Positions 3,902-41,173 of a DNA stretch of 64,000 bases are shown one piece after another. The notes beneath the pieces are model-generated. The model had not been told where the DNA came from. It did not search any database and was given only the letters and a program-made list of their open reading frames with translations. Positions within the stretch are counted from its first letter, which is position 1. Each line of letters begins with the position of its first letter. Source of the stretch: Bacteroidaceae bacterium (lineage in GTDB: Bacteria > Bacteroidota > Bacteroidia > Bacteroidales > Bacteroidaceae); the NCBI GenBank assembly GCA_017445925.1, contig JAFSRW010000064.1, positions 1 through 64,000 of the forward strand, given 5' to 3'. Position numbers and translations under genes: made by a program.

Positions 3902-5551
3902 TTAGACCCCCTCTAACTCCTTCTTTATGGGGAGAACACAGGTTTGGAAAGGATCTTCTGTTAACGTAAATTCTTTGTCGTTTATTACTAACTGATAGGC
4001 CTGAAGACAAAGGTGGTCCGAGGGAGAACCATACAAGCGGTCGCCAACGATAGGATTGTTCAAACCATCGGGATGCGCACAATGCACACGCAGCTGATGG
4101 GTGCGGCCCGTCTGAGGTTGCAGCTCTACCAATGCGTGGTTACCTACATTCTCCAATACCTTATAATATGTTATCGCCGTCTTGCCGTGCTGATAATCTA
4201 CCATCTGTCGGGGGCGATCCATAATATCCGGTCTAAGCGGCAGACGTATTTCGCCTTGCTGGCCAACAGGCATTTCTCTTTCCAAAAGAGCCCGATAGGT
4301 TTTCCTGATTCTATGATAACGGAAATCCTCTTGTAACTTGTGGTACATATCATCGGTAAGGGCTATCACCATCAATCCACAGGTATCCATATCCAGACGG
4401 TGAACAATCATAGGGCCTGTAGCCTGCGGGAACATCTCCCTGACGATACGCTGCACATTAGGCAAATCATCCTTTCCAGGAACCGAAAGCATTCCGTGTG
4501 GCTTTACCACTACGGCCATCTCCTCATCCCGATAAACGGTTTCCAATGTCAGGTCTTTCTTAGACAGCAACGGGTTTTCCTCTACAAGCAAGCCCTGCAG
4601 CATGTGACCCAGGATGGGCTTGCATCTGCTGTTACAGGCGGGATAGAAATATCCTTCCTTCCTTAACTCATCGCGCGGCGAATCGCCCACCCAGAATTCA
4701 GCCATACAAAGCGGTTGCAGACCTTCCTTGTATGCTGCCTGAAGCAAACGCGGGGCACAGCACTCACCGGCACCACTGGGAGGTGTGGATGCGAAGAGCT
4801 CTGTCAGGTTCTTGCTCTCGCCCTTAGCGTTCAAGAAAGAGAATTGCCGAAACAGCCATTGCTGCAAGGCAATACTGCGGTTGTGCCGTTCCTGTTGTAA
4901 CTCCCCTATCTGCTGCTCAAGCGCACGAAAAGAAGCCTCATCTGCATCTATCCTTTGTTTCCATTCCTGCTGCAAACGTTTGAATTGTGCTTTCTGGAAC
5001 TGGCTCTGCCGAATCATCTCCGGCTCCCGGACTGCAAGTTCTTCTGCTGAGAGTTCAGAGCGTAACCTATGGCGTTCCTCCTTACTCCTCAGCATCTCCG
5101 AACGATAGTCGTCCAAATCCCTTTGCATCTGCTCACGTAGCGGGCTCTCCTTTATCCGAACCTGCAAAGAAGCTATCTTAGCATTGATAGATGATATCAC
5201 CGCTTGCTCCTGTTGGAAATGACAACCGGGCTCCATCAGATCGAATACCGGAGGGACAAAGTACTGGTGACAAGTTTTTCCGTCCAATGTTCCTGAGAAA
5301 GCGGCCAGAAAGCCCAAATGCCCTCCACCCAAAGGGGGGAGTCGGAGGGGGGCTACAATTAACACACCGAACATCTTGCCTTCCTTCAGTTCAGCAGCCC
5401 ATTGTGACTGAGTTTTCAGATAAGCCTGCACTTCCTGAGCCGCCATCATACACAAAGGATGAGGCTGATAGCAGAAAGGATATGTAAAGCGCTCGGGCAG
5501 AGCCCCCTCCCATCCTCCCCCGAGGGGGAGGGGATGAATTGCTACAGCCAT
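3902..5551 (-). CDS. RluA-family RNA pseudouridine synthase with long N-terminal extension
   Basis: The last 220 residues form the catalytic domain: VVVKPHGMLSVPGK, then MIVHRLDMDTCGLMV with the catalytic Asp in HRLDxxTSG-like context, and LQPQTGRTHQLRVHCAHP. The enzyme isomerises uridine in rRNA or tRNA; the target is not known. The N-terminal 300 residues contain ERFTYPFCYQPHPLC and a long coiled coil (about residues 115-250) rich in Glu, Gln and Arg. This is the extended architecture seen in Bacteroidales, not the E. coli type with an S4 domain. Two palindromic elements are in frame, giving HPLPLGGGWEGAL (about residues 6-17) and LRLPPLGGG (about 66-77). The start overlaps the stop of the WbqC-like gene by 10 bp. 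Confidence 0.85.
   Translation of the reverse strand: MAVAIHPLPLGGGWEGALPERFTYPFCYQPHPLCMMAAQEVQAYLKTQSQWAAELKEGKMFGVLIVAPLRLPPLGGGHLGFLAAFSGTLDGKTCHQYFVPPVFDLMEPGCHFQQEQAVISSINAKIASLQVRIKESPLREQMQRDLDDYRSEMLRSKEERHRLRSELSAEELAVREPEMIRQSQFQKAQFKRLQQEWKQRIDADEASFRALEQQIGELQQERHNRSIALQQWLFRQFSFLNAKGESKNLTELFASTPPSGAGECCAPRLLQAAYKEGLQPLCMAEFWVGDSPRDELRKEGYFYPACNSRCKPILGHMLQGLLVEENPLLSKKDLTLETVYRDEEMAVVVKPHGMLSVPGKDDLPNVQRIVREMFPQATGPMIVHRLDMDTCGLMVIALTDDMYHKLQEDFRYHRIRKTYRALLEREMPVGQQGEIRLPLRPDIMDRPRQMVDYQHGKTAITYYKVLENVGNHALVELQPQTGRTHQLRVHCAHPDGLNNPIVGDRLYGSPSDHLCLQAYQLVINDKEFTLTEDPFQTCVLPIKKELEGV
5320..5353 (-). repeat. Palindromic GC-rich element inside the RluA-family gene (copy 1)
   Basis: The plus strand reads GCCCTCCACCCAAAGGGGGG then AGTCGGAGGGGGGCT. 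On the coding strand it gives the residues around LRLPPLGGG. It has the same architecture as the copies at 35692-35722 and 38964-38993 and faces the opposite way to the copy at 5501-5534. Confidence 0.75.
5501..5534 (+). repeat. Palindromic GC-rich element at the N-terminus of the RluA-family gene (copy 2)
   Basis: It reads AGCCCCCTCCCATCCTCCCC then CGAGGGGGAGGGGA. It encodes HPLPLGGGWEGA just ahead of the conserved ERFTYPFCY segment, so it has lengthened the extreme N-terminus without breaking the frame. Confidence 0.75.
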
Positions 5552-6093
5552 AACATACCCTCCGGACCCATGTTAAAAAGTAAATCCACAATGCTTAAAT
5601 CCTGCAGGAAGCCGTGCTTGCGGGCAAAAACCTGATAATAAGGTTTCTCTACTTGGGGAAATACGGGTTGTTCGCCTGCATAAGCGGTAGTGCGGGAAAT
5701 GGGAGTGTCGATATCTATAAGGGAACAGACGAGGCGAAGCAGGTCCTCGTTGAAATCAGCCAGAAAATCCCACTTCTTCTCGTAGAAGGGCGCGAAGTCA
5801 TCGGCGTAGTACTCAAAGAAGGGACTCTGCCGGTAGCTGCTCTGCAAGGCGTTCCAATGCAGATGCCGCCAGTTCCCGTGGTCGCTGATACGGATATCGC
5901 GCATCAGGGCATGAGGCGCAGGCTTTTCTACGGGGATACTAAGCGCAAGGGCACCTTGTGGGCTGTCTATCAGGCAACGGTTGCGGAAGGTCTGCTTGCG
6001 GTAATGGTCGTTTACCTCAAGCTGCGCCTCATCGGCCCTAAAGAGTGCCGAATAATGCGATACCGGAGCCAGATAGCAACAAGGCAATATCAT
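5542..6093 (-). CDS. WbqC-like family protein
   Basis: This 183-residue protein starts MILPCCYLAPVSHYSALF, and contains HYRKQTFRNRC and LSIPVEKP followed by HWNALQSSYRQSPFFEYY. This pattern is shared by the WbqC-like family, whose founding member is in an O-antigen cluster. The biochemical role is unsettled. There is no signal peptide or membrane segment. It lies in a minus-strand run dapB-lepB-wbqC-rluA-PHP: lepB ends 50 bp upstream with a palindromic element between, and its stop codon overlaps the RluA start. In many Bacteroidales it is also found next to lepB and dapB, which supports the family call. Confidence 0.75.
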   Translation of the reverse strand: MILPCCYLAPVSHYSALFRADEAQLEVNDHYRKQTFRNRCLIDSPQGALALSIPVEKPAPHALMRDIRISDHGNWRHLHWNALQSSYRQSPFFEYYADDFAPFYEKKWDFLADFNEDLLRLVCSLIDIDTPISRTTAYAGEQPVFPQVEKPYYQVFARKHGFLQDLSIVDLLFNMGPEGMLWL

Positions 6094-6104
6094 TAGACTT
6101 TAGT

Positions 6105-6142
6105 TCCCCTCCCCATAAAGGGGGAGGGTTAGGAAGAGGGTC
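6105..6142. repeat. Palindromic GC-rich element between lepB and the WbqC-like gene
   Basis: CCCCTCCCCATAAAGGGGGA with the tail GGGTTAGGAAGAGGGTC. The inner hairpin CTCCCC-ATAAA-GGGGAG belongs to the family described at 38964-38993. It fills almost all of the 50-bp spacer. Confidence 0.75.
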
Positions 6143-6143
6143 C

Positions 6144-7604: not shown

Positions 7605-7609
7605 CTCGG

Positions 7610-8420: not shown

Positions 8421-9638
8421 ATGGAAAAACTGCTCCACTACGTGTGGAAACATAAGATACTTCCCCTGAAATCGCTCCTTACAACAGACGGGCGCGAGAT
8501 AGAAATCCTTGATCCCGGAACGTACAACACAAACCAAGGGCCCGATTTCTTCAACGCAAAGGTAAAGATTGGCGAAACGCTTTGGGCGGGAAACATAGAA
8601 CTGCACCTGAAAGCCTCCGACTGGTTCCGGCATGGGCACGATTCCGACCCCTCGTACAACAACACCATCCTGCATATTGCACAGGTGGTTGATTGTGAGG
8701 TTACGACAGAAGACGGGAACCACCCGCCCCAGTTGCAACTGGACATTCCTGCTCATCTGTATCAGAACTATCAGGAGTTGTGCCAGACCGACGACTACCC
8801 CCGTTGCCATAAGATTATCCCTTCTATTCCCCAGATGAAGGCCCACATGTGGATGGATGCTTTGTTGGCCGAACGCATGAAAGAACGCGCCCAGAAGGTA
8901 CAGGACCGCGTAAACCGACTGAACGGCGACTGGGAGCAGGCAACCTTTGTGACGCTTTGTCGCAACTTCGGTTTCGGTCTGAATGGCGACACATTCGAGC
9001 GCTGGGCCATGATGATTCCCCTGCAGGGTATCGGCAAGCACAGGGACAACCTGTTTCAGATAGAAGCCATCTTCCTGGGGATGGCCGGACTGATAGATGA
9101 TGCGGCACAAGTGAAAGGACAGGAAATGGCAGAGCGGTGGAAACGCGAGTTCGGCTTTCTCTCGCACAAGTTCCAATTATCGGAACCCATGAAGGCATCC
9201 GACTGGAAATTCCTCCGCACTCGCCCCAAGAATTTCCCCCACGTCCGCATCCTGCAGATAGCAGAACTGTACCATAGCGGGAAGGCGCAGATGTCGGCCC
9301 TCACAGAAGCTAAAGACGTGAAGGAAATGCATCGGATTCTGGGCATTGGGGGCACATCGGCCAAAAGCCGTAACCTGCTTATCATCAATACCATCGTACC
9401 GCTGCTGTATGCTTACGGTACCCATCGGTCTGATGAGAAACTTATCCAAAAAGCAATCGTCCTGCTGGAGGAACTCCCTGCCGAGGACAACTACATCCTG
9501 CGCCAATGGAAGGCTTGCGGACTGGGCGTAGAAACCGCCGCCGACAGCCAAGCGTTGATACAACTGAAACGTGAATATTGCGACCGCAAGGATTGCCTGC
9601 GCTGTCGGTTTGCTTATGAATTCCTGAAAATGGATTAG
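8421..9638 (+). CDS. DUF2851 family protein
   Basis: This 405-residue protein begins MEKLLHYVWKHKILPLKSL and contains ILDPGTYNTNQGPDFFNAKVKIG, the highly conserved DUF2851 N-terminal block, which resembles a nuclease-like fold. Near the C-terminus is YCDRKDCLRCRFAYEF, a cysteine pair also conserved in the family. Function is unknown. No signal peptide is present, so it is cytoplasmic. The stop codon (9636-9638) lies within the first unit of a GGATTAG tandem repeat, so the final residues MD come from repeat-adjacent sequence. The thioesterase gene follows 54 bp on, then dprA, suggesting one plus-strand transcript. Confidence 0.85.
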   Translation: MEKLLHYVWKHKILPLKSLLTTDGREIEILDPGTYNTNQGPDFFNAKVKIGETLWAGNIELHLKASDWFRHGHDSDPSYNNTILHIAQVVDCEVTTEDGNHPPQLQLDIPAHLYQNYQELCQTDDYPRCHKIIPSIPQMKAHMWMDALLAERMKERAQKVQDRVNRLNGDWEQATFVTLCRNFGFGLNGDTFERWAMMIPLQGIGKHRDNLFQIEAIFLGMAGLIDDAAQVKGQEMAERWKREFGFLSHKFQLSEPMKASDWKFLRTRPKNFPHVRILQIAELYHSGKAQMSALTEAKDVKEMHRILGIGGTSAKSRNLLIINTIVPLLYAYGTHRSDEKLIQKAIVLLEELPAEDNYILRQWKACGLGVETAADSQALIQLKREYCDRKDCLRCRFAYEFLKMD

Positions 9639-9659
9639 GGATTAGGGATTAGGGATTAA
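9632..9659. repeat. Tandem heptamer repeat, unit GGATTAG x4
   Basis: Four units (three GGATTAG, one GGATTAA). The first contains the TAG stop of the DUF2851 gene. It is followed at about 9664-9685 by an 8-bp periodic stretch (GTCAACTT-like). The same GGATTAG unit recurs at 49637-49665 and, inverted, at 50041-50068. Confidence 0.8.
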
Positions 9660-12686: not shown

Positions 12687-14942
12687 TTAGTTATCTTCGA
12701 ATTGAATATTTAATTCTTTCTCAATGTGAACATTAACGCCCTCTGGAGAATTCTCGAAAGTGAGCCAGAGAAGACGACGAGAAATATCGTTGACTGGAGC
12801 TGTTTTCCTTCTCGCCATATAACCGACAGATTTTCCCTCAGCGTTTGTACAACAAATATCTGCCAAACCAAACTCTTTAGGAAGATAAAGGCAAATAATG
12901 TTGGTAGTATTCTGCGGTGACTTGCAAGTAAAACTGAAGCTGTCTTTCGTGATCTTCTCATCATATTGGCGCGAGGCGGCAGCTATTACCTGAGGCCGCT
13001 TTTTGTCTATCTTCCTTAAATCGAAAAAGAAAGCCTGATGCCCGGGCAGTATGCTGGTCTCGGAATAATAAGTGAGTTCGGGTGAGAAAAGGTCGATATA
13101 ATCGCCTTTAATCATGAAAGGCTCATTATTCACCACATTCTCATCCAATACAGCCACTAGGGTATAAGGGCCGCGCTCCAAATAGAAGGAGTTTTTCTGT
13201 TGCAACTTACCGTATGCCCGAGTGACAACATCCAAAAAAGGCTTATCCCCTCCCTTTTTAAGCACATACTCCTTGGGATCATGACGCAACACATACACCT
13301 TTCCCTTACCATATTTATATTCTCCCTCTTCAGCCTTCTCTGGAATGCCCATCAAAGAGAAAAGATGCTGCGAAGGTGCTGTATAGCACATCCCACCCTG
13401 GTTCCACCATTCTTGTACACGCTGATAAGGATCGTCATCTCGACCGGAATAAACAATGATGCCGCCATTCTTTACCCACTCCGCCAAATGCGTATGCGCC
13501 TCTTTAGAAAGTGGTTTCATATTGCTGTAAGACATCAGCAGTACCCGTACATCCTTCCACGTATCGGCATAACCTACATTCTCTATGTGTGTAATACTTA
13601 CTGGCACTCCACGTTTAAGCAAGGGTAATGCCTCGCCATAGAAGTTGGATAGCTGCGGGTCGTCGTACCCCTCAACAGGACGAGGAGAACGTTGGAACAT
13701 CAGCGAGTTAGCCATCAACACAGAGATGCCCTGCGAGCCACTCACTCGGTTCTGGGAAAGCGGCATGTGGTTCAGCGTGTTTATCATCACCTGCATCTGA
13801 GTAGAATAGAAACGCGGTATATTTGCCTTTTCATCGCTGTTGGCACTTATCCTGTAAAGTCCCTCATAGATACGGTCGGGCCAAGGCATAACCTCATAGT
13901 CGGCAATTTGGGGATAGAGCAGCTGAGCCGTAAAGGTAGCCTGATAGTTGCGCTTATAGTCCTCCCAGTCCTTGGCCCGGTCCTCTATGGGGTCAGTTAG
14001 AAAGAACATCTTTCTGCCCGTTGGGCGGGTCATTGACTCCATACAGCCATATTCCAGAAAGGCTGTCTCGAACACACGCTCCTTAGCTTCGCCGTTGAAG
14101 TAATTGGGCTCTCGCGAAGTTCCCGTCCACACCTGCGCTATATAGCCATCGCAACTCTCCAATGAGGCAAGAGAAGCCTCTGGCGACACAATCTGCCACT
14201 GAGAATAATTAAGCAACGAGTGCGTGGGCACATAACAGCGGATATTCATCCCCTTTTCACGCCCATATTGCTTGGCATAGGTGAAAGCCTCATCAAGGGC
14301 ACGATAGTAGAGATGATACTTGAGTTTGTTGGAGAGATAGGTGTTCTCTGCATTTTCGTGCTGAGGTCGCCAAGGGAAACCGTAATACTCCTGCCATTCG
14401 CGCTTGAAAGCCTCGCTGTATCCAGCTCGCGCCCAGAATTCCGGTTCCTCCAAGAAGATGGCATCAATGCCCGCATCTATCACAGGCTTTATGTGGCGTT
14501 CCTTAAAGTAGGTCAGGTAGTTCTTTGTAGGAATAATATAAGGTATAAGGCGACCGTGCCAAATGGTATCGCCTTGCCTCGTTTTCTGCCCTTCATCCAA
14601 ATGCCATTTCCCATCCCATTTGCCTGTGAAGTAATCCTGATACTCGCCCCAGGCAATACCTGTCATAAAATGAGTGGTATAACCACGATTTCTCCACGAA
14701 TCCACTCGTTCGCGGAAGGTCATACGGCGATTATCGTTGGCTCCATATACCATTACAAGGTCGGAGCGGATATCCGTGACAGGTTTCCAAGGACCAGCCG
14801 TCTGAAAGGTAGTCTTCTCCTGAGCCGATAGGGAAAGAGGGATGAAGAAGAGAAGAAAGACCCCTCCGGCTCCCAGAATCCATCCAGCTCCCCTTGTAGG
14901 GGAGAGAAACTTCTTGATGATATCAGACATGGCGGTTAGCAT
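12687..14942 (-). CDS. Putative secreted glycoside hydrolase-like protein (TIM barrel plus GATase-like domain), unassigned
   Basis: I do not recognise a named family. The 751 residues start with a signal peptide (LLFFIPLSLSAQ) whose N-terminal region is lengthened by a palindromic element (SPTRGAGWILGAGG). Residues about 60-400 look like a TIM barrel: FKERHIKPVIDAGIDAIFLE, then EPEFWARAGYSEAFKREWQEYYG, whose acidic pair and helix resemble the acid/base region of GH42-like enzymes. Residues about 420-560 contain VRVLLMSYSNMKPLSKEAHTH and WVKNGGIIVYSG, typical of the class-I glutamine amidotransferase-like domain that follows the barrel in GH42. The C-terminus is beta-rich. It sits between the NagX-like and fucosidase genes, so a role in glycan breakdown is likely. 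A second ATG at 14930 is a possible start. Confidence 0.6.
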   Translation of the reverse strand: MLTAMSDIIKKFLSPTRGAGWILGAGGVFLLFFIPLSLSAQEKTTFQTAGPWKPVTDIRSDLVMVYGANDNRRMTFRERVDSWRNRGYTTHFMTGIAWGEYQDYFTGKWDGKWHLDEGQKTRQGDTIWHGRLIPYIIPTKNYLTYFKERHIKPVIDAGIDAIFLEEPEFWARAGYSEAFKREWQEYYGFPWRPQHENAENTYLSNKLKYHLYYRALDEAFTYAKQYGREKGMNIRCYVPTHSLLNYSQWQIVSPEASLASLESCDGYIAQVWTGTSREPNYFNGEAKERVFETAFLEYGCMESMTRPTGRKMFFLTDPIEDRAKDWEDYKRNYQATFTAQLLYPQIADYEVMPWPDRIYEGLYRISANSDEKANIPRFYSTQMQVMINTLNHMPLSQNRVSGSQGISVLMANSLMFQRSPRPVEGYDDPQLSNFYGEALPLLKRGVPVSITHIENVGYADTWKDVRVLLMSYSNMKPLSKEAHTHLAEWVKNGGIIVYSGRDDDPYQRVQEWWNQGGMCYTAPSQHLFSLMGIPEKAEEGEYKYGKGKVYVLRHDPKEYVLKKGGDKPFLDVVTRAYGKLQQKNSFYLERGPYTLVAVLDENVVNNEPFMIKGDYIDLFSPELTYYSETSILPGHQAFFFDLRKIDKKRPQVIAAASRQYDEKITKDSFSFTCKSPQNTTNIICLYLPKEFGLADICCTNAEGKSVGYMARRKTAPVNDISRRLLWLTFENSPEGVNVHIEKELNIQFEDN
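14860..14906. repeat. Palindromic GC-rich element in the signal-peptide region of the 751-residue hydrolase
   Basis: GACCCCTCCGGCTCCCAG, a short spacer, then CCAGCTCCCCTTGTAGGGGA. The hairpin CTCCCC-TTGTA-GGGGAG matches the family core. In the minus-strand gene it encodes LSPTRGAGWILGAGG between the basic residues KK and the hydrophobic core of the signal peptide. Confidence 0.7.
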
Positions 14943-14951
14943 AAATGCTAC

Positions 14952-15005
14952 ACTTTAAACTTTAATAACTGACTATCAACTCTAAACTCTAAACTCTAAA
15001 CTAAA
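14952..15005. repeat. Tandem heptamer repeats, units ACTTTAA x2 and AACTCTA x4
   Basis: ACTTTAA twice at 14952-14965, then AACTCTA three times and AACTAAA once at 14978-15005. They fill the spacer between the acyltransferase and the hydrolase genes. Confidence 0.75.
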
Positions 15006-15006: not shown

Positions 15007-15036
15007 CCCCTCCCCCAGGGGGAGCGGGGAGGGAGC
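15007..15036. repeat. Palindromic GC-rich element after the NagX-like gene
   Basis: CCCCTCCCCCAGGGGGAGCG followed by GGGAGGGAGC, ending 2 bp from the acyltransferase stop codon. It is an intergenic copy of the in-gene family. Confidence 0.75.
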
Positions 15037-20423: not shown

Positions 20424-21992
20424 ATGCTTAGAAAAGTTAGAATCACGCTGGCCCTCATCTTCTGGGTGCTGATAACGTGGCTGCTGGTAGACTTTACCGG
20501 AACGGCTCATGTGTACCTGGGATGGATGGCTAAGGTTCAGTTCTTGCCCGCTTTGGTGGCAATGAACATTGGAGCGCTACTGTTTATTGTTGCTCTGACG
20601 CTCCTGTTTGGCCGTATCTACTGCTCTATTATATGCCCGCTGGGTGTGATGCAGGATGTTATCGCTTGGTTTCGCAAGAAGAAAAACAAGTACAGCTACA
20701 GTGAGGAGAAAGGCATTCTTCGCTACAGCATCTTGGCCATTACGGGTTTTCTGTTGACAACCAATCTTGCTTGGGTGGTAGGACTGATTGCCCCCTACAG
20801 TACTTATGGCAGGATTGTGGGGACTGTTTTCTCGCCGCTTTATAAACTGGCGAATAATGCTTTGGCTGCCTTAGCCGAACATTATGACAGCTATGCCTTC
20901 TACGAGGTGGACGTATGGCTAAAGAGCATTCCTGCCCTTATTGCTGCCGTTGCTGCGTGGATAATAATAGGTGTGCTGGCTTGGCGAGGTGGTCGTACGT
21001 GGTGTAATACCATCTGCCCTGTGGGTTCATTCTTGGGCATCATAGCAAAATACTCACGCCTGAAGATAGTTATCGACCCCAATGTGTGCAACGGTTGTCG
21101 TAAATGCGAACGTAACTGCAAGTCGGCTTGCATCAATGCCAAGACGCACAAGGTGGATTACAGTCGTTGTGTTACCTGTGGTGACTGCATAGAAATGTGC
21201 AATCAGAAGGCTATAAAATTCAGACCCTCCCCCAACCCCTCCCTCTATGGAGGGGAGACCTATAAGGTCGATAACAAAGAGTCCCTCCCCATAGAGGGGG
21301 AGGATAGGAAGGGGTCTGGTCGTCGTGCCGTTCTGACAGGTGTGGCTTTGTTGGTTGGAACAGCCTTGGTGAAGGCACAGGATAAGACTACGGATGGAGG
21401 ATTAGAAGAGATTGAGGATAAGAAGAAGCCCAACAGAGATAAGTTGATTACTCCTCCAGGGTCTGTATCTATCAGGAATCTATCGGAGCATTGTACCTCT
21501 TGCCAGTTGTGTATCAACAGTTGCCCCAACGATGTGCTGCGTCCCAGCAACAGTCTGGACCGCTTTATGCAGCCCGAGGTAAGCTTTGAGCGAGGTTACT
21601 GCCGACCCGAATGTACCCGTTGTTCTGATGTTTGTCCTACTGGCGCCATCAAGCCTATAACCGTAGAACAGCGTACAGCCACTCAAGTAGGTCATGCAGT
21701 TTGGGTGAAAGAGAATTGCGTTCCTGTTGCCGATGGTATTCCTTGCGGCAACTGTGCCCGCCATTGTCCTGCTCAGGCCATTCAGATGGTTCCTTTGCAG
21801 GCTGGAGTTCATCAGGATGGTTGGCGTTGGTTAGATGCCGACAATCAGGAGATTCCACGTGAGAGAGTTCTGCTTATCCCTGTGGTGAACGAGGAGAAGT
21901 GTATTGGTTGTGGTGCCTGTGAGAACCTTTGTCCATCACGTCCCTTCAGCGCTATATACGTAGAAGGACATGAAGTGCATCGTGAAATTTGA
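20424..21992 (+). CDS. NapH/NapG-like polyferredoxin membrane protein
   Basis: The first 220 residues form a NapH-like membrane part with YCSIICPLGVMQD and WCNTICPVGSFLG after transmembrane helices. Two 4Fe-4S motifs follow: CNGCRKCERNCKS and CVTCGDCIEMCNQ. After an insertion comes GRRAVLTGVALLVGTALVKA, like a twin-arginine or membrane anchor segment. Further clusters follow: CTSCQLCINSCPN, CTRCSDVCPT, CGNCARHCPA and CIGCGACENLCPS. It thus looks like NapH fused to NapG and should pass electrons from quinol toward a periplasmic acceptor. Two inverted palindromic elements lie in frame at about residues 266-298. The aldo/keto reductase begins 20 bp after the stop. Confidence 0.85.
   Translation: MLRKVRITLALIFWVLITWLLVDFTGTAHVYLGWMAKVQFLPALVAMNIGALLFIVALTLLFGRIYCSIICPLGVMQDVIAWFRKKKNKYSYSEEKGILRYSILAITGFLLTTNLAWVVGLIAPYSTYGRIVGTVFSPLYKLANNALAALAEHYDSYAFYEVDVWLKSIPALIAAVAAWIIIGVLAWRGGRTWCNTICPVGSFLGIIAKYSRLKIVIDPNVCNGCRKCERNCKSACINAKTHKVDYSRCVTCGDCIEMCNQKAIKFRPSPNPSLYGGETYKVDNKESLPIEGEDRKGSGRRAVLTGVALLVGTALVKAQDKTTDGGLEEIEDKKKPNRDKLITPPGSVSIRNLSEHCTSCQLCINSCPNDVLRPSNSLDRFMQPEVSFERGYCRPECTRCSDVCPTGAIKPITVEQRTATQVGHAVWVKENCVPVADGIPCGNCARHCPAQAIQMVPLQAGVHQDGWRWLDADNQEIPRERVLLIPVVNEEKCIGCGACENLCPSRPFSAIYVEGHEVHREI
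21223..21317. repeat. Inverted pair of palindromic elements inside the Fe-S protein gene
   Basis: Element one (21223-21259) starts GACCCTCCCCCAACCCCTCC and holds a CCCTCTATGGAGGGG hairpin. Element two (21281-21317) is its near reverse complement and ends GGATAGGAAGGGGTC. The 21-bp spacer and both arms are in frame, giving RPSPNPSLYGGE and SLPIEGEDRKGSG between the second ferredoxin motif and the RR segment. Confidence 0.8.
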
Positions 21993-34180: not shown

Positions 34181-34906
34181 ATGAAAAAGAAATTAAAGAT
34201 TTACACCGCTCTGCTGGTTGTAGTACTGATTGTATTTGGTGTGCCTTTTTATGTTCATTATGATGAGGCAATAATAAGCGATGCTAAACTGGAACTCGTG
34301 GAAAATGAGAATGATACGGTGAGCAAAGGAGTAAGAACTGAGTATTGGCAGAATATGGGATACGGCGCTGAATTAAAGAAAGGAGAAGGTGGTGGCAAAG
34401 AGAAAATGGTAGGTATCGACGTTTTGGTTAAGCCTAAAGGTCCGGCACAGAGGACACTACTCTCTACCTCCGAAAACCAGACCTATAAGATAGAAATGCA
34501 AAAAGTTCGACTGGTGGCCCCCATTTCCAAGTCGCCATTAGGCAAATACGCAGGAATCTTAGGTGCCTCATTGGCTGTTGCAGCATTTATCGTATGGATA
34601 TGGGTATTTATCCTGGCTTTTAAACTTATCATTAAAATCCGCAAGGGTGAAGTCTTTGTAACACAAGTCTCGCGTTATCTGGAGATAACTGGTTTTCTGC
34701 TTACTAGCCTTTATCTGTACAATTGGATAACATCATACGCCATCACGCAGTATTACATCAATACCATAGAACTGGGTGACTATTATATCATATACAGAAA
34801 CGAGTGCAACGTTATGTACCTCATTACAGGTCTGGCCCTGATGATTATCTCGCAAATCATACTGATGGGTAAGGATTTGAAGGAGGAACAGGATTTGACC
34901 ATCTGA
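34181..34906 (+). CDS. DUF2975 family membrane protein (second paralogue, with extracytoplasmic domain)
   Basis: The protein has 241 residues: one N-terminal membrane segment (IYTALLVVVLIVFGVPFYV), an extracytoplasmic region of about 100 residues, then three membrane segments and the tail LKEEQDLTI. The loop KLIIKIRKGEVFVTQVSRYLEITG aligns with that of the first paralogue. The extra domain may sense a ligand outside the membrane. Unusually for this genome a Shine-Dalgarno-like AAAGGAGAAAAGG lies just ahead of the ATG, perhaps supporting translation within the operon. A palindromic element follows the stop. Confidence 0.78.
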   Translation: MKKKLKIYTALLVVVLIVFGVPFYVHYDEAIISDAKLELVENENDTVSKGVRTEYWQNMGYGAELKKGEGGGKEKMVGIDVLVKPKGPAQRTLLSTSENQTYKIEMQKVRLVAPISKSPLGKYAGILGASLAVAAFIVWIWVFILAFKLIIKIRKGEVFVTQVSRYLEITGFLLTSLYLYNWITSYAITQYYINTIELGDYYIIYRNECNVMYLITGLALMIISQIILMGKDLKEEQDLTI

Positions 34907-34913
34907 AAAAAAG

Positions 34914-34952
34914 CCTCACCCCTAACCCCTCTCCCGTGGGCGAGGGGAACTT
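34914..34952. repeat. Palindromic GC-rich element, subtype with CTCCCGTGGGCGAGGGGAAC
   Basis: CCTCACCCCTAACCCCT followed by CTCCCGTGGGCGAGGGGAAC and TTAA. It is almost identical to 35975-36016 and clearly related to the in-gene copy at 38674-38714. Confidence 0.8.
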
Positions 34953-34981
34953 AATATATAAACAATAATAATTATCGCGTT

Positions 34982-35692
34982 ATGAAAAATAAATTGAAGA
35001 TTTACAGCATTTTGTTAGCTGTTGCTTTTCTGGCAGAATTACTTGATATAAATTCCTTGTTGGAACATAAGACTGTTATTTACGAAGATACGGGAAAAGA
35101 AGAGAAAGCACTGACTATTGGGCCTTTACCCAAGGAATGCACAGCAAGAACCATAAAAGCAGTGGATGGCATGTTGGCCTTGATGAAACCATATCGCCCA
35201 TTTGAAGTTAATGTAAAATCATGCCGTTTTGGACGGGAGAAGTATTTGGGGTATAATGCGGGCGAGAAATCTTGCGTTATGCATATTAAAAAAGCAGAGG
35301 TTATGATTCCTACTGAGCGTGAATATGTGCCAACCCTTTATTATATTCAAATAATTAATATTATATTACTAGGGGTATTTGCTCTCTTTATTATTGTCAT
35401 AGGTTGGAATTTGATTGTTTCTGTTTACAAAGGAGAAGTCTTTGTGGCCAATGTCGCCCGTCAGGTGGAATTAGTTGGCGGTTTGATTTGTGGTATGAGT
35501 TTGGTAAACATTACATATGGCTATATATCATCAATTATACTAAAAAAACTGATAGATTTGTCATACCTTAATATCAGTTGGGATTATGGCAATAATGGTA
35601 TTTATCTTATTCTCGGCCTTACGCTAATGGTTTTTTCTCAGATTATCCTAAGGGGCAAGGAGTTGCAGGAGGAACAGGAACTGACCATTTAG
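34982..35692 (+). CDS. DUF2975 family membrane protein (third paralogue)
   Basis: The 236-residue protein has the same plan as the second paralogue: an N-terminal hydrophobic segment (IYSILLAVAFLAELL), an extracytoplasmic region to about residue 115, three membrane segments and the tail LQEEQELTI. The shared loop reads NLIVSVYKGEVFVANVARQVELVG. The N-terminal sequences MKKKLKIYTALL (second gene) and MKNKLKIYSILL (this one) show a recent duplication. The extracytoplasmic domains have diverged far more than the membrane parts, as expected if each senses something different. A palindromic element begins at its stop codon. Confidence 0.78.
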   Translation: MKNKLKIYSILLAVAFLAELLDINSLLEHKTVIYEDTGKEEKALTIGPLPKECTARTIKAVDGMLALMKPYRPFEVNVKSCRFGREKYLGYNAGEKSCVMHIKKAEVMIPTEREYVPTLYYIQIINIILLGVFALFIIVIGWNLIVSVYKGEVFVANVARQVELVGGLICGMSLVNITYGYISSIILKKLIDLSYLNISWDYGNNGIYLILGLTLMVFSQIILRGKELQEEQELTI

Positions 35693-35722
35693 GCCCCCTC
35701 CCCGCTCCCCCTTGGGGGAGTG
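35692..35722. repeat. Palindromic GC-rich element after the third DUF2975 gene
   Basis: GGCCCCCTCCCCGCTCCCCC then TTGGGGGAGTG. It matches the pair at 38964-38993 and 39048-39080 and starts on the last base of the TAG stop codon. Confidence 0.8.
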
Positions 35723-35726
35723 TATA

Positions 35727-35974: not shown

Positions 35975-36016
35975 GGCCTCTCCCCAAACCCCTCTCCCGT
36001 GGGCGAGGGGAACTTA
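35975..36016. repeat. Palindromic GC-rich element between the XRE regulator and TlpA-like genes
   Basis: GGCCTCTCCCCAAACCCCT, CTCCCGTGGGCGAGGGGAAC, then TTAAAC. It matches the element at 34914-34952 over most of its length, including the AACTTAA tail. Confidence 0.8.
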
Positions 36017-36047: not shown

Positions 36048-37097
36048 ATGAAAAGAGTATTTATTTTTGCGATGCTTGCTTGCTGCGCTATAGCAGGATG
36101 GGCACAAGAGAACAACTACACCATTAAGGCTGACATTACGGGTATGGTTGAACAGATGGCAAAGCATAACGTCGTCATCGACACCTTCTATCTGGCCGAA
36201 TACGCCACTAAAAAGCCGATTACGGAGAGGTTTGCCCTGAAAGATAATAAAATTGAACTTAGCGGAAAGGTGGAAAAGCCCCAGCTGGCTGCGCTGATGT
36301 TGGAGATGAGGATTACTGGTGGGGTTCGCACCAATCACATTCCTTTTATTCTGGAAAGTGGCAATATCACGATTAAGATGGAAGACGAATCAATTGAAGT
36401 TGAAGGTACTGCCCTGAACGATTCTCTGTTTAGTGCTACCCGAGAGTATAGAAAAGCCATGCAGGAAGGTGATATAGACAAGGCTGGTACATTCATCAAG
36501 AACTACATCTTACGACACCGAAGCGACCTGACTGCCGTACTGATGCTGACGGCGATGAGGCATCAATCGGAGAAAGACGCTAAGGAAGTGCTTGGGATTA
36601 TTGGACAATGCGACGAGGCCGTTCAGCAGCACCCAATCATCGTTCAGCTTGCTGAAAGAATTAACACTCTGCTTAATCGTCCTAAAGAGGGTGATATGTT
36701 CAAGGACTTTTCTGTAGAGTACGATGGCAAGACCACTCGCCTGAGTGACTATGTAGGCAAGGGAAAGTATGTGCTGGTTGACTTCTGGGCTTCGTGGTGC
36801 GGCCCCTGCCGAGCAGAGATTCCCAACCTTATCAAGGCCTATGAACAGTACAAGGACAAGGGCTTTATGGTTCTGGGTGTAGCTGTAAACGATAAACCCG
36901 AAGATACGCTGAGGGCCATCGAGAAAGATGGGATTACTTATCCGCAGATTCTCAATTCGGAAGGCATCGCTGCGTCAACTTACGGATTCAACGCTATTCC
37001 CTACATCGTACTCTTTGGTCCCGATGGTACCATCCTTTCCTGCGAGCTCCGAGGTGATGCTATCAAAGCTAAGTTAGCAGAAATCTTCGGAGAATAA
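36048..37097 (+). CDS. TlpA-like thioredoxin with N-terminal DUF4369-type domain
   Basis: A signal peptide (FIFAMLACCAIAGWAQ) precedes a DUF4369-like beta domain (residues about 20-120) with VVIDTFYLAEYATKKP and IPFILESGNITIKME. A helical linker leads to the thioredoxin domain (about 215-349) with the redox motif VLVDFWASWCGPCRAEIPNL and a cis-Pro in NAIPYIVLFG. In Bacteroidota such proteins act in the periplasm in disulfide reduction, often linked to haem or metal stress. A terminator hairpin follows. The convergent BlaR1-like gene also carries a DUF4369-like region. Confidence 0.88.
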   Translation: MKRVFIFAMLACCAIAGWAQENNYTIKADITGMVEQMAKHNVVIDTFYLAEYATKKPITERFALKDNKIELSGKVEKPQLAALMLEMRITGGVRTNHIPFILESGNITIKMEDESIEVEGTALNDSLFSATREYRKAMQEGDIDKAGTFIKNYILRHRSDLTAVLMLTAMRHQSEKDAKEVLGIIGQCDEAVQQHPIIVQLAERINTLLNRPKEGDMFKDFSVEYDGKTTRLSDYVGKGKYVLVDFWASWCGPCRAEIPNLIKAYEQYKDKGFMVLGVAVNDKPEDTLRAIEKDGITYPQILNSEGIAASTYGFNAIPYIVLFGPDGTILSCELRGDAIKAKLAEIFGE

Positions 37098-37169: not shown

Positions 37170-38960
37170 TTACTCCTTGTGTATAACCGAGTAGTTGATT
37201 TTCAGCAGGTTGTTCTTACGGCAAGCTTCCTTGACCACATGTTCCATGTTGGGTAATTCCTTTTCGGAGTGGATGTTGATGATTGTCGGCTCGTATTTAT
37301 ATTTGCTGAGCATCTGCATCAGTTCTTTAGGATTAACGAGTTTATACCCATGCTCGCCTTTATTGCGAATAAATAGTTTTTCATCGTCAGTAATATGAAT
37401 GTGAACCTCGTTTTTCCATTCTTCTTCCATATCTCTAACTTGTGATCGCCTATAATTGATGTAGTTTTTGAAGCGACCTTCCTGAATGCCATCGGCAATG
37501 GATAAATCCCATGCGGCTTTCCCATCTGCAATTCCTGCCACCAGCCACATATACTGGTACATGATGCAGCCTTCCTCGTTCTTATGCTTGCGGTTATAGT
37601 CGGCTATTGCAGCATAATAAGCCTTATCGCCTGCGCCTTGCAGGTCTATCGCTTTCTGCCTTTCCTTCAAATAGAACTCCTTGAATGCTGCCCAGTCGCG
37701 ATAGAATTTACTGCCGCTGACGTCGAAATCGTCGAATCTTGTACCATAGAGATTCATATTGCAGGTCTCGCCAGGCACGAAGAATATTTCCTGAAACTGG
37801 TCTCCTAATGTGCCGTCTTTAAGGACAGCTTTCAGCATTCCGGAATAGGCTTGATCTAACTCTCTGCTAAACTCGAACTTTCCGTCCTTTACATATATAG
37901 TATCTATTGGGTCGGGATGAACGTTGTCGCTATAATCCCATATATAGACAAGATAGTGGTCAACATTCAGATTTTCTGACACCGTTCCCTTCAGCGTGAA
38001 GGTGGTTGGGGTAGATTTGACGGTCTGCTCGATGAACTCGCTGGCTGTCTGGAACTCTGAGGTGGCAAAGGCGCTGAGGGCCAGTGCAATCATGGGCAGA
38101 AGGTACAGCACTCGGCTGCGTCTGCTCCGATGGGGATTTGTCTTAAGCATCATACTGATTCTTTTTTTGGTTAGACTGTGATTAAAATTGTTTGCAAAAG
38201 TATAGGTGCTGGCGCCAACAGCCTTCTTTATTATCAATTCGGAATAGGAATGGGCGGAGATGCCCTCGCGCAGGACATAGTCGTCGGCCTCGTACTCGTG
38301 CACATCGCGCAGATAGATGCCCAGCAGGTAGGCGAAGGGATTCCACCATTGGATGGCCTCTACAAGGGTAAGCAGGATAATATCCGAGGAGTGACGGTAG
38401 AGGATGTGAGCCTTCTCGTGCAGGATAATCTCACGACCACTTTCTGTAAAATCTTTTTCGCTGATTACTATACTACGCAGCCAACAGAACGGAGCCACAT
38501 TCTCGGCGTGACAATAGATGCGTATGCCGTCTGTGTCGTCCTTCGTCCAGATGCTGCCCCTGCGTATGATACGCCCCATAGAAAGCACTTCGCGCAGACG
38601 AATGCCCAATACAGTTAATGCCCCAATAGCATACAGAATACTTACCAGATAGAACCAAGGAAAAGGTTTCTTTAAGTTCCCCTCGCCATCGAGAGCGGGA
38701 TAAGGGGCGAGGTTCTGTCCCTCAACAGGAACGCCCAGTTCCAAGAGCCCTTTCTCTAAAGTCTGTACGGCTGGCACATTGTCCATAGAGATGTAAGAGA
38801 AATTACACAACGGCAACACAAGGCTCAACACAAGAATGGCCAACAGGGTTAACCGATTGAAACGGAACATCTTTTCCCTGAAAATCAGGAATATACCAGG
38901 CACAAACAGCAATGTTAGCAGTATGGCCGACTTTATAGCGTAGATTAATATAGCAGACAT
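37170..38960 (-). CDS. BlaR1/MecR1-like M56 peptidase fused to DUF4369-like and ExbD-like domains
   Basis: The first 300 residues are a membrane M56 peptidase: four hydrophobic segments, the zinc motif HEKAH (in EIILHEKAHILYRHSSDII) and the downstream EYEADDYVL. The middle (about 310-420) resembles a DUF4369 domain (FTLKGTVSENLNVDHYLVYI, FFVPGETCNMNLYG). The last 75 residues (VHIHITDDEKLFIRNKGEHG, then PTIINIHSEKELPNMEHVV) look like the periplasmic part of ExbD/TolR. A palindromic element is in frame at about residues 82-95 (NLAPYPALDGEGNL). With the adjacent BlaI-type repressor it should form a proteolytic signalling pair; the inducer is unknown and no beta-lactamase is nearby. Confidence 0.82.
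   Translation of the reverse strand: MSAILIYAIKSAILLTLLFVPGIFLIFREKMFRFNRLTLLAILVLSLVLPLCNFSYISMDNVPAVQTLEKGLLELGVPVEGQNLAPYPALDGEGNLKKPFPWFYLVSILYAIGALTVLGIRLREVLSMGRIIRRGSIWTKDDTDGIRIYCHAENVAPFCWLRSIVISEKDFTESGREIILHEKAHILYRHSSDIILLTLVEAIQWWNPFAYLLGIYLRDVHEYEADDYVLREGISAHSYSELIIKKAVGASTYTFANNFNHSLTKKRISMMLKTNPHRSRRSRVLYLLPMIALALSAFATSEFQTASEFIEQTVKSTPTTFTLKGTVSENLNVDHYLVYIWDYSDNVHPDPIDTIYVKDGKFEFSRELDQAYSGMLKAVLKDGTLGDQFQEIFFVPGETCNMNLYGTRFDDFDVSGSKFYRDWAAFKEFYLKERQKAIDLQGAGDKAYYAAIADYNRKHKNEEGCIMYQYMWLVAGIADGKAAWDLSIADGIQEGRFKNYINYRRSQVRDMEEEWKNEVHIHITDDEKLFIRNKGEHGYKLVNPKELMQMLSKYKYEPTIINIHSEKELPNMEHVVKEACRKNNLLKINYSVIHKE
38674..38714. repeat. Palindromic element inside the BlaR1-like gene, related to 34914-34952
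   Basis: AAGTTCCCCTCGCCATCGAG, then AGCGGGATAAGGGGCGAGGTTC. Its reverse complement aligns with 34914-34952 and 35975-36016, including the GGCGAGGGGAACTT end. It encodes NLAPYPALDGEGNL just after the second membrane segment. Confidence 0.75.
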
Positions 38961-38963
38961 AAA

Positions 38964-38993
38964 AGCCCCCTCCTGCTCCCCCTTGGGGGAGTG
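38964..38993 (+). repeat. Palindromic GC-rich element between blaI-like and blaR1-like genes (left half of inverted pair)
   Basis: AGCCCCCTCCTGCTCCCCCT then TGGGGGAGTGA. It is the near reverse complement of 39048-39080. It lies 4 bp upstream of the BlaR1-like start codon and probably sits in the mRNA leader. Confidence 0.85.
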
Positions 38994-39000
38994 ATTATTG

Positions 39001-39035
39001 AGTTTAGAGTTTAGAGTCAGTATCTGAGTTTAGAG
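39001..39035. repeat. Tandem heptamer repeat, unit AGTTTAG
   Basis: AGTTTAG twice, then diverged units, between the two inverted palindromic elements. The last codons and stop of the BlaI-like gene (DSDTDSKL region) are read from it. Confidence 0.65.
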
Positions 39036-39465
39036 TTAAGTGTTCGTTCACTCCCCCAAAGGGGGAGCAGGAGGGGGCTTCCATTTCGTGCAAGAAGGCA
39101 ACAAGTTCCTCCTCCGATATTTCTTCTTCACGGATGAAGTAGCTGAGCATAGAGCGGAGGCTGCCTCCAAAGAAGGTTTTCTTGACATCGTGCATAGCCT
39201 TGCGGACATATTCGGCGCGACCAATCTTGGCAACGAAATGGTGGGTCTTCCCTTCCCCATCCTTCTTGAAGTGGTCCACAAAGCCTTTCTCGTAAAGCAT
39301 TCGCATCTCATTGGCCAATGTAGTGTAGGCTGGTTGAGGCTCAGGCAGGTGGTCGTATATCTCACGTGCTGAGACGGAGTGGTTGATGTCCCAGATGATG
39401 GACATAATATCGTACTCGGTTTTGCTGAGAATCGCCTCTCTTCTGTTCGTTGTTTTCATTTGCAT
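39004..39465 (-). CDS. BlaI/MecI/CopY-family transcriptional repressor
   Basis: The winged helix is in residues about 8-80: LSKTEYDIMSIIWDINHSVS, AREIYDHLPEPQPAYTTLAN and EMRMLYEKGFVDHFKKDGEG. The rest forms the dimerisation helices, ending EISEEELVAFLHEME. BlaI repressors bind promoters of their own operon and are cleaved when the M56 sensor is triggered. After FLHEME, the tail APSCSPFGGVNEHLTLNSDT comes from an inserted palindromic element plus a heptamer repeat, so the natural C-terminus has been replaced or lengthened. The start may be 39465 (MQMKTT) or 39459 (MKTT). A TACTTTTG box lies at 39483-39490. Confidence 0.85.
   Translation of the reverse strand: MQMKTTNRREAILSKTEYDIMSIIWDINHSVSAREIYDHLPEPQPAYTTLANEMRMLYEKGFVDHFKKDGEGKTHHFVAKIGRAEYVRKAMHDVKKTFFGGSLRSMLSYFIREEEISEEELVAFLHEMEAPSCSPFGGVNEHLTLNSDTDSKL
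39048..39080 (-). repeat. Palindromic GC-rich element in the 3' coding end of the blaI-like gene (right half of inverted pair)
   Basis: TCACTCCCCCAAAGGGGGAG then CAGGAGGGGGCTT. It pairs with 38964-38993 over about 30 bp with a 54-bp loop that holds the stop codon of the gene. It encodes APSCSPFGGV. Confidence 0.85.
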
Positions 39466-39482
39466 TTCGTTTGTTTCTGCTG

Positions 39483-39490
39483 CAAAAGTA
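39483..39490 (-). promoter_or_regulatory. -7 box TACTTTTG before the blaI-like gene
   Basis: Exact -7 box on the minus strand, 18-24 bp before the candidate start codons. The BlaI operator would be expected to overlap this point, but I do not see a clear TACA/TGTA dyad. Confidence 0.45.
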
Positions 39491-39590
39491 GAGGGGAATG
39501 GGAAGCAAATAGCAAAATAATCTCCAAAAAATGCAGGAACCTCCCAGATTTTAACCTTTATTAATAGAAATAGCGCGGGTGGCATCGTCC

Positions 39591-39626
39591 TTAACTTCTT
39601 TAACTTCCTTAACTTCTTTAACTTCT
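39591..39626. repeat. Tandem nonamer repeat, unit TTAACTTCT x4
   Basis: Four 9-bp units (one TTAACTTCC) in the spacer upstream of rpoN. Confidence 0.75.
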
Positions 39627-39650
39627 TTCAAAAAAAGTACCCATACAAAG

Positions 39651-39680
39651 TTGTTGGCTCACTTTTTCTTTGTACTTTTG
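39651..39680 (+). promoter_or_regulatory. Promoter of rpoN
   Basis: TTG at 39651-39653, 19 bp, then TACTTTTG at 39673-39680. The ATG at 39689 lies only 8 bp past the box, so the leader is at most a few bases. Confidence 0.6.
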
Positions 39681-39688
39681 CATTAGAT

Positions 39689-41173
39689 ATGACAAAAGAC
39701 AACAAACAGACGCAGAATCAGGTACAGGTACAGACCGAGCAACAGGTACAGGTACAGACGCTTTCGCCCCAGCAAGTAATGTTGGTGCGACTGACCGAAA
39801 TGCCCCTTGAAGCCCTTCAGCAACGCATTGAGAATGAGTGCCTGGAGAACCCTTGGCTGGAGAAAGCCCCCTCCGACCCCTCCCAAGGAGGGGAGTACGC
39901 AGATGATGCCCCCTCTCCTTTGGAGAGGGATGGGGAGAGGCTGGCAGATACTTACGACTATCGCTCGGAAGATGATATTCCTGATTATATGCTGCGTCCC
40001 TCATACACCAAGAATACGCCTGAGAATGTGGAGTACGGCGATACGCTATCGTTCTACGACCAATTGAAGGCGCAGATGTCGGACTTCGACCTGACGGAGC
40101 GCCAGCAGATGTTGCTGGAATACATGATAGGCGAATTGGACGGCAACGGCCTGTTGGGAAAGCCTCTGATTCAGATAGTAGATGAAGCAGAAATTTATCA
40201 AGGCATAGAGACTTCGGAAAAGGAAATGCTGGGCGTGCTGGCCATTCTGCAGCAGTTTGAACCAGCAGGCATCGGAGCCCGCTCGTTGCAGGAATGTCTT
40301 ATCCTACAGATAAAGCGCGACGAGAATAATCCTGCGCAACGCCTGATGTTGCAAGTGATGGAGAAGTATTACGACGACTTCCTGCACAAACGTTGGGAAC
40401 GCATTCAGCAGAAACTGAAACTCTCGAATATTCAGGTGGAGGAGTTGAAGCGCGAGATAAAACGACTGAACCCAAGGCCCGGCTCCTCGATGGGCGAAAG
40501 AAGTGTGGTGATAGGCCACCAGATAACGCCCGACTTTATCGTTGATACCGACGAGGACGGACACATCAGTATGCAACTGAACGTGGGCAATACTCCTGCC
40601 TTGATAATAAGCCCTGATGCCACAGAGAAGCTGGAGGCGTACGAGAAGCAGAAAGACCAGCAGTTGAGTAAGGCTATGCAAGAGGACATCCGTTTTACTC
40701 GCGAGTACGTAGAGCGCGGACAGCTCTTTATAGAAGCGTTGGCGCAACGAAGGGAAAGCATGATACGCACCATGAACGCTATCATAAAGTTGCAGCGCCC
40801 CTTCTTTCTGGAAGGCGACGATACATTGCTCAAGCCCATGAAGCTGGAGGATGTGGCTCCTCTGGCCGGCTACGACATCAGTACGGTAAGTCGTGTGTGC
40901 AACAGCAAATACGTGCAGACGCCTTTCGGCATTTACTCCCTGAAGCACTTCTTTACCCATAAGGCAGCGCAGAAGGATGATGCTGATGCAGCAACCTCGA
41001 AACAAGTGATGGCAGCCATCCAAGACCTGATAGATGCAGAAGACAAGCAGCATCCGCTAAGCGACGAGAAGTTGGCCGTTCTGCTGAAACAGAAGGGATA
41101 TGATGTAGCTCGCCGCACAATAGCCAAATATCGCGAGGCAATGAAGATTCCCATTGCAAGAATGAGGAAATAA
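39689..41173 (+). CDS. rpoN: RNA polymerase sigma-54 factor
   Basis: Sigma-54 directs RNA polymerase to -24/-12 promoters and needs AAA+ activators. Region I is the Gln-rich start (QTQNQVQVQTEQQVQVQTLS, then QQVMLVRLTEMPLEALQQRI). The core-binding region contains LEYMIGELDGNGLL and LQQFEPAGIGARSLQECLI. The HTH part has LEDVAPLAGYDISTVSRVCN and SLKHFFT. The RpoN box is ARRTIAKYRE near the C-terminus. Between regions I and II two inverted palindromic elements encode PSDPSQGGEYADDAPSPLER (about residues 58-84), inside the linker that tolerates length change. The stop overlaps the beginning of a heptamer array. Confidence 0.95.
   Translation: MTKDNKQTQNQVQVQTEQQVQVQTLSPQQVMLVRLTEMPLEALQQRIENECLENPWLEKAPSDPSQGGEYADDAPSPLERDGERLADTYDYRSEDDIPDYMLRPSYTKNTPENVEYGDTLSFYDQLKAQMSDFDLTERQQMLLEYMIGELDGNGLLGKPLIQIVDEAEIYQGIETSEKEMLGVLAILQQFEPAGIGARSLQECLILQIKRDENNPAQRLMLQVMEKYYDDFLHKRWERIQQKLKLSNIQVEELKREIKRLNPRPGSSMGERSVVIGHQITPDFIVDTDEDGHISMQLNVGNTPALIISPDATEKLEAYEKQKDQQLSKAMQEDIRFTREYVERGQLFIEALAQRRESMIRTMNAIIKLQRPFFLEGDDTLLKPMKLEDVAPLAGYDISTVSRVCNSKYVQTPFGIYSLKHFFTHKAAQKDDADAATSKQVMAAIQDLIDAEDKQHPLSDEKLAVLLKQKGYDVARRTIAKYREAMKIPIARMRK
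39864..39942. repeat. Inverted pair of palindromic elements inside rpoN
   Basis: Element one (39864-39897) is AAAGCCCCCTCCGACCCCTC with hairpin CTCCCAAGGAGGGGAG-like sequence. Element two (39907-39942) is TGCCCCCTCTCCTTTGGAGA then GGGATGGGGAGAGGCTGG. The second is roughly the reverse complement of the first, and the frame is open through both. Confidence 0.8.

Follow-up and report, generated by a model that had tools for sequence, protein, structure and literature searches.

Short palindromic repeats of triplex-motif-like design lie in frame within unrelated genes of a Bacteroidaceae genome

The stretch analysed here (the window) comprises the first 64 kb of contig JAFSRW010000064.1 (135 kb), from a Bacteroidaceae bacterium assembly (GCA_017445925.1; 3.3 Mb, 100 contigs, 83.7% complete). 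The bacterium belongs to a Bacteroidales lineage that probably inhabits the gut or rumen. Among its genes are those for an RluA-type pseudouridine synthase, an iron-sulfur (Fe-S) protein, BlaI and RpoN, and short palindromic repeats lie both within and between its genes. A first-pass annotation had reported about fifteen copies between 5.3 and 39.9 kb, at least nine of them in open frames of six unrelated genes, and had proposed a spreading family that is tolerated in frame in the manner of Rickettsia palindromic elements (RPEs). Here we describe these repeats, which are likely to be small non-autonomous elements with the design of an intrastrand triplex motif that multiply within genomes of the genus and are tolerated in frame.

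Hairpin-plus-tail repeats in the 64-kb window

The copies are ~31-40 bp repeats in which a C-rich tail is followed, after a spacer of 2-4 nt, by a hairpin with a C-rich arm; on the G-rich strand the order is hairpin, short spacer, purine tail. Written tail first, type A reads AAGCCCCCTCC-nn(n)-CTCCCCC-TT(T)-GGGGGAGTG, type B reads approximately GACCCTCTCC-nnn-CCTCCCCC-TCTAT-GGGGAGG, and type C, of 39 bp, reads AGCCTCACCCCTAACCCCTCTCCCGTGGGCGAGGGGAAC. Two covariance models, R1 (type A) and R2 (types B and C), were built from separate sets, mixed-type alignments having put the tail in the wrong place, and were run unfiltered. Their E-values are rough, and copies used for training (one window copy among those for R1, five window copies only for R2) score by construction. 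With R1 or R2, 15 distinct places reached E<0.1, all of them within 5.3-39.9 kb; nine lie in open frames of six genes and six are intergenic or at gene ends. Four of the nine in-frame places (14880, 38676 and both RpoN copies) are weak by the models. A hairpin-plus-tail finder that is independent of the models marked 8 of the 15 places and nothing in five block-shuffled windows, and the pattern CTCCCCC-N0-20-GGGGGAG occurs five times in the window against a mean of 0.01 in shuffles. The family as first reported is confirmed, and so is its placement in six unrelated genes. The copies, and a sixteenth, uncertain place, are as follows.

3905..3939, plus strand: degenerate and uncertain copy at the C-terminal end of the RluA-type gene (R2 15.9 bits, E=0.23)
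5320..5352, minus strand: type A, in a linker of the RluA-type pseudouridine synthase gene (3902-5551, minus strand), encoding APLRLPPLGGG (R1 32.6 bits)
5500..5534, plus strand: type A/B, near the N-terminus of the RluA-type gene (HPLPLGGGWEGA) (R2 28.7 bits, R1 21 bits)
6103..6142, minus strand: type B, between the Peptidase_S26 and WbqC genes (R2 45.8 bits, training copy)
14880..14907, plus strand: weak copy near the start of frame 12687-14942 (minus strand) (R1 17.6 bits, E=0.038; missed by the hairpin finder)
15007..15035, minus strand: type A, directly after the stop of the DUF5009 gene (15038-16156, minus strand) (R1 27.9 bits)
21223..21260, plus strand: type B, in the Fe-S protein gene (20424-21992, plus strand), where it forms the left half of an inverted pair and encodes RPSPNPSLYGGET (R2 44.7 bits, training copy)
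21279..21316, minus strand: type B, right half of the Fe-S gene pair, encoding ESLPIEGEDRKGS (R2 42.2 bits, training copy)
34913..34950, plus strand: type C, after the DUF2975 gene (34181-34906, plus strand) (R2 49.2 bits, training copy)
35694..35723, plus strand: type A, abutting the stop codon of frame 34982-35692 (R1 41.3 bits)
35976..36013, plus strand: type C, upstream of a thioredoxin-like gene (36048-37097, plus strand) (R2 50.2 bits, training copy)
38676..38715, minus strand: weak type C-like copy in the M56 (BlaR1-like) gene (37170-38960, minus strand) (R2 22 bits, E=0.016; missed by the hairpin finder)
38965..38994, plus strand: type A, just 5' of the M56 gene start, pairing as the left half with the inverted copy at 39048 (R1 45 bits)
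39048..39078, minus strand: type A, right half of the pair with 38965, at the C-terminal end of the BlaI gene (39004-39585, minus strand), encoding APSCSPFGGVN (R1 53.8 bits, training copy)
39864..39898, plus strand: left half of an inverted pair in a linker of rpoN (39689-41173, plus strand) (R1 17.6 bits, E 0.04; R2 17.9 bits; marked by the hairpin finder)
39908..39941, minus strand: right half of the rpoN pair (R2 18.8 bits, E=0.065; marked by the hairpin finder)

Rfam, at its gathering threshold, had no matches in the window, and a tRNA scan of the window found none. By inspection, the aligned copies have no GTAG or CGTC tag beside the palindrome.

The C-rich arm of the hairpin tends to be the mirror image of the tail, and an intrastrand purine triplex requires a mirror tail. 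Among 97 scored copies of the genome-wide set of 106 described below, the tail matched the arm better as a mirror than as a direct repeat in 30 and the reverse held in 2, with 65 ties; at least six of seven positions matched in mirror in 88 copies, against 70 for the direct-repeat equivalent, and both scores exceed those of shuffled tails. Mirror symmetry of the tail is therefore to be read as a tendency of the whole set that does not decide individual copies.

Most copies in the genome lie inside reading frames

The genome contains 22 instances of the strict type A pattern and none of its reversed counterpart. R2 gave at least 124 matches at E<=1, which may be an undercount since 150 of 757 first-look candidates were scored. 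Merging 85 R2 matches (E<0.05) with 21 strict type A copies (the 22nd was already in the R2 set) gave 106 copies, of which 59 are internal to frames, 16 lie near frame ends (8 within 25 codons of the stop and 8 at an ambiguous 5' end), 9 overlap an end and 22 are intergenic. Frames here run from stop to stop, with at least 150 aa and the longest taken first; this caller is crude and wrongly lists the BlaI copy as intergenic, and the class that overlaps an end says nothing on whether the frame was broken. The excess of 59 internal over 9 overlapping copies (binomial p ~1e-19) is accordingly indicative only. Since 86% of the DNA fetched falls in such frames, the copies avoid genes to some degree.

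Unrelated genes and intergenic DNA alike contain near-identical stretches of 31-39 bp, which occur in both orientations. Besides the RluA, Fe-S protein, BlaI, RpoN and M56 genes and frame 12687-14942 in the window, hosts recognised by Pfam include RNase R, a sigma-54 activator, an OEP efflux protein, a MutS2-like protein, an ArsP permease, MFS and SSF transporters, an LptC-like protein, glutamate synthase (GltB), QueA and altronate/galactarate dehydratase (UxaA), as well as FtsH, a Band 7 protein and an Na+/H+ antiporter, whose copies sit near the stop. The in-frame copies add Pro/Gly-rich loops and leave the frames intact. In lying in frame in many unrelated genes, the copies behave like RPEs. 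Insert peptides such as SLTPNPSPVGEGN should accordingly be annotated as repeats and not as domains.

Stop codons are nearly absent from type A in all frames, and the consensus is free of stops in three of six frames for type B and in four of six for type C. Type C accounts for 30 of the 75 frame-spanning copies (59+8+8); 19 of the 30 share a single reading frame among the six, giving SLTPNPSP(V/E)GEGN or close to it. Purging of harmful frames suffices to account for this bias, and a preference at insertion is not needed. The first-pass annotation had proposed selection for frame-neutral insertion; tolerance in frame is upheld, a preference of the insertion itself need not be assumed, and survivorship in the host fits better because the type A core varies in length (24, 25, 26 and 31 nt for the strict pattern in this genome).

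At C41:45394-45918 of the same genome (G000) four element matches fall within ~0.5 kb. Three of them apparently share a frame that also has kelch and sodium:solute symporter matches; the fourth (45883) has E=0.19.

Relatives mostly lack the inserts or carry others at the same linkers

Comparison with orthologues supports the idea of a spreading family. BlaI has 11 extra residues, APSCSPFGGVN, relative to four aligned relatives, two of which are close. In QueA, a 34-residue stretch with an inverted pair stands where the median of 29 aligned frames (its own included) is two residues, and the linker is two residues long in 17 of the 28 other frames; at the same spot genome G020 has a different pair and G005 a fragment. 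In altronate dehydratase, element-like sequence is found at the same linker in the present genome, G016 and G019, and most other relatives are without it. For RluA, the copy at 5320..5352 corresponds to a net gain of 7 aa over the median of 8 frames (its own included), and G005 and G020 have pairs at the same or another linker. Across RluA, RpoN, Fe-S protein, UxaA and QueA, relatives mostly have no insert or have other element-like sequence. When six ortholog sets were scanned with a simple hairpin finder, it marked 14 of 123 frames from other loci (counted by hand; the Fe-S set includes second loci of a few genomes), a number to be read knowing that the finder misses the RluA pairs of G005 and G020 and that a few of its marks may have arisen by chance. 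Were these ordinary conserved linkers, distant orthologues would carry identical residues at the corresponding sites, and none such was found; the exception is the N-terminal RluA copy (5500..5534), which is shared with one other species of the genus (G013, L113).

Inverted neighbours share one arrangement

Within 150 bp of one another, 16 neighbours in the genome comprise 14 head-to-head, 2 direct and 0 tail-to-tail arrangements. In 13 relatives (the present genome excluded), 18 of 19 neighbours among the matches listed are head-to-head and one is direct, so that, again among the matches listed, all 32 of 32 inverted neighbours within 150 bp (14 own and 18 from relatives) are head-to-head. 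In 13 of 14 own pairs, as judged by eye, the two members do not have the same spacer between tail and hairpin. In GltB (C25:19816-19981) a head-to-head pair encloses a native and conserved segment, ELDRKLYIIRKRIEN, a helix that aligns with structure 7mfm, and the elements fall alongside it in poorly aligned stretches. Because it encloses native sequence, this pair did not arrive as one mobile unit. Of the clues to mechanism, the constant polarity of the pairs, which holds even around native DNA, is the best. A different arrangement was seen in genome G010 (C87:6063-6252), where five type B copies stand head-to-tail at ~38-bp spacing.

Copy number and subtype differ between species

The strict type A pattern was found in 33 of 49 genomes of the genus, at 0-50 copies each and 286 in total; beyond the genus, 2 of 32 genomes of the same order have it. 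Loop subtypes vary by species, CTCAAG being common in G016 and G003 and CTTTG in G027, which argues for amplification within lineages. The strict grammar also occurs in Proteobacteria, Chloroflexi, Nitrospirae and other Bacteroidota, in at least 117 stretches; the 88 copies in the 80 of these that were examined comprise 28 internal to frames, 19 at a frame end, 3 overlapping an end, 18 intergenic and 20 near contig ends, and we draw no conclusion from this placement, long frames often being spurious in high-GC genomes.

The repeats resemble the triplex motifs of other bacteria

It had been proposed that no named family matches these repeats. This does not stand: their design is that of the triplex motif (TM, earlier PIT) described by Holder et al. 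in 2015, a hairpin followed by a third, mirror-image purine block (PMC4666352), and the strict grammar recurs in several phyla. According to the portions of that paper cited here, TMs are present in scattered genomes, have no reported association with a transposase and no known function, are always intergenic in E. coli MG1655 and are not tied to mobile elements there. The E. coli form, TMECO, has the consensus CCCTCNCCC-N3-6-GGGNGAGGG-N3-GGGNGAGGG (PMC4666352). The present copies share the hairpin and mirror purine tail, and type C is close to the TMECO layout. Pair members also differ from each other in both systems: in E. coli the members of close inverted pairs carry different second-loop types in 5 of 5 pairs (PMC4666352), to be set beside the 13 of 14 own pairs with differing spacers. 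The exact TMECO consensus is not matched, however, with a single match in the genome when the loops are loosened to N2-6 and N3-4; a near-TMECO pattern is present in 20 genomes among the 395 sampled from the phylum, few of them carrying it at high copy number. As far as the sequences indicate, the kinship is thus one of design and not of identity with TMECO.

Compared with TM/PIT as set out in those portions of the paper, three features are new: the mostly intragenic, in-frame location (59 of 106 copies internal and 22 intergenic, whereas the E. coli copies are always intergenic), the one fixed arrangement of pairs (the G tails point outward here and inward in four E. coli pairs, the opposite polarity), and the lack of a link to a Y1/RAYT transposase. 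The string "Bacteroid" is absent from the main text of PMC4666352, and among the matches listed in searches of open-access literature we found no earlier description of such repeats in Bacteroidota. RPEs, as summarised in the text cited, are ~150 bp long, fall into ten families and lie in frame in many unrelated genes (PMC10969869), and RPE-4 and RPE-6 are treated as repetitive extragenic palindromic sequences (REPs) (PMC3733652). The present repeats are like RPEs, so described, in being short palindromes in frame within many unrelated genes; they are set apart by their length of 31-40 bp and their triplex-type design. With REPs and REPINs they share a size of 20-40 bp, hairpins, inverted dimers and some intragenic copies, which for REPs are on record in the part of PMC3733652 drawn on here; they differ in having no GTAG/CGTC tag and no RAYT association that we could find.

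The genus offers a TM-type design in mostly intragenic form in dozens of related species with different copy numbers. Two open questions thereby become testable, namely by what route repeats of this kind spread and with what frequency short selfish DNA gives rise to new protein segments.

How the repeats may spread

We envisage that the repeats multiply, singly or as head-to-head pairs, within genomes of the genus; that copy number and loop subtype differ between species would reflect repeated copying to new sites. An insertion that preserves the frame would be read through as a loop rich in Pro, Gly, Ser and Glu. Copies are seen to occupy stop-free frames and, within proteins, linkers, surface loops or termini; selection presumably keeps them there, and would purge insertions that break a frame or fall in buried positions. 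Copying most likely acts on a folded single strand, a hairpin or triplex that would be exposed at replication forks. The activity may be supplied in trans, by a RAYT or a MITE-type transposase among others, which we regard as a serious possibility though short of probable; template switching during replication or repair is a further candidate, which we rate about equally. A bolder combination of these ideas is doubtful, namely that transposase-free, selfish, triplex-forming hairpins copy themselves by template switching at forks, with a head-to-head partner produced every time, even where native coding DNA lies in between, and that they have come to supply the whole genus with new loops in essential proteins, in which linkers are replaced as well as lengthened.

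Several observations weigh against a family of mobile triplex-motif repeats. Single copies have only a modest folding advantage over shuffles (z -0.7 to -2.0), and pairs give z of -1.6, -2.9 and -11.5. The first-pass annotation had expected insertion of exactly 3n bases; this is seen cleanly in BlaI and at one QueA site (+32 residues, insert ~30), the latter being the clean one among eight sites scored. At the other 7 of 8, the net gain falls short of the insert (+1, +7, -4, +8, +0.5, +15 and +20 residues for inserts of ~11, 11, 25, 31, 11, 32 and 31; medians include the own locus), so that host linker must also have been lost or replaced. The RpoN and RNase R linkers are barely longer, or are shorter, than the median of their relatives, and their length shows no insertion. 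The relatives, all of different species, are at most ~78% identical in the long stretches compared, too distant for exact junctions; close empty sites are absent among them, and no target-site duplication was apparent by eye in the printed flanks. An enzyme that moves the repeats was not found.

Explanations that invoke no mobile element fare poorly. Convergent use of C- or G-rich codons in ordinary low-complexity Pro/Gly linkers would agree with the hypervariability of the sites, with a native HPLP in the N-terminal part of RluA that resembles an insert, and with linkers that barely exceed those of relatives; but the near-identity of 31-39 bp in unrelated genes and in both orientations, the 22 strict matches against none for the reversed pattern and, already decisive against it, the intergenic copies of the same sequence leave this account scarcely tenable. 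It is very improbable that the copies are intrinsic transcription terminators or mRNA stabilisers at gene ends, as those at stop codons (15007, 34913, 35694) might suggest, since most copies lie inside frames and the 34-40 kb region has 3 terminator-like sites against 5.9 in shuffles, one of the three (38970-38989) overlapping an element.

Two established modes of movement come closer. In size, hairpin-plus-tail anatomy, inverted pairs and high copy number the repeats resemble REPs and REPINs, which are moved in trans by a Y1 (HUH) REP-associated tyrosine transposase (RAYT) and have intragenic precedents in the cited part of PMC3733652, but such an origin is quite unlikely here. PF01797 has no match in the genome (which, at 83.7% completeness, makes the absence less than final); a strong Y1 match (E<1e-15) is present in 5 of 49 genomes of the genus, 12 more having weak matches only (E 4e-7 to 1e-3) that were excluded from the counts. 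The five carry 14, 0, 28, 0 and 8 copies against a mean of 5.4 in the 44 without (p=0.51), there is no element-like match in the flanks (<=1.5 kb) of nine Y1 loci, the five strong ones included, and the aligned copies lack the tags. Alternatively, a head-to-head pair could be a miniature inverted-repeat transposable element (MITE) moved by a classical insertion-sequence transposase, with single copies as relics. We hold this to be unlikely: pairs do have inverted outer ends, often AAG-CC...GG-CTT, and a distance of 45 bp between cores recurs in 6 of 19 neighbours from four genomes among the matches listed, yet single copies without inverted ends are common, spacers vary in length and sequence, the GltB spacer holds the native helix, and no target duplication was seen by eye. 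The genome has only one +- neighbour pair 150-2000 bp apart, so an autonomous partner is not evident; an autonomous element flanked by copies was considered and rejected, there being no suitable pair in the genome.

Other repeats and neighbouring genes in the window

Tandem arrays of heptamers (AACTCTA, GGATTAG, AATGTTC, ATCTCTA) lie at 14978-15002, 9632-9658, 41172-41203, 41848-41886 and 50037-50067. The array at 14978-15002 adjoins the element at 15007, and the spacer of the pair at 38965-39078 is filled with TTTAGAG units. Ahead of the blaI gene, 39588-39628 consists of TTAACTTCTT-type units with a period of 9/18; ~40 bp of this array recur at many places in this genome and its relatives, at identities mostly of 85-97%, and the array is a second dispersed repeat. 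The two neighbouring genes in 34181-35692, the first of which matches DUF2975, each have an element after the stop and share a 95-bp stretch that is 72% identical (34808-34902 and 35594-35688), which suggests that they may be paralogues.

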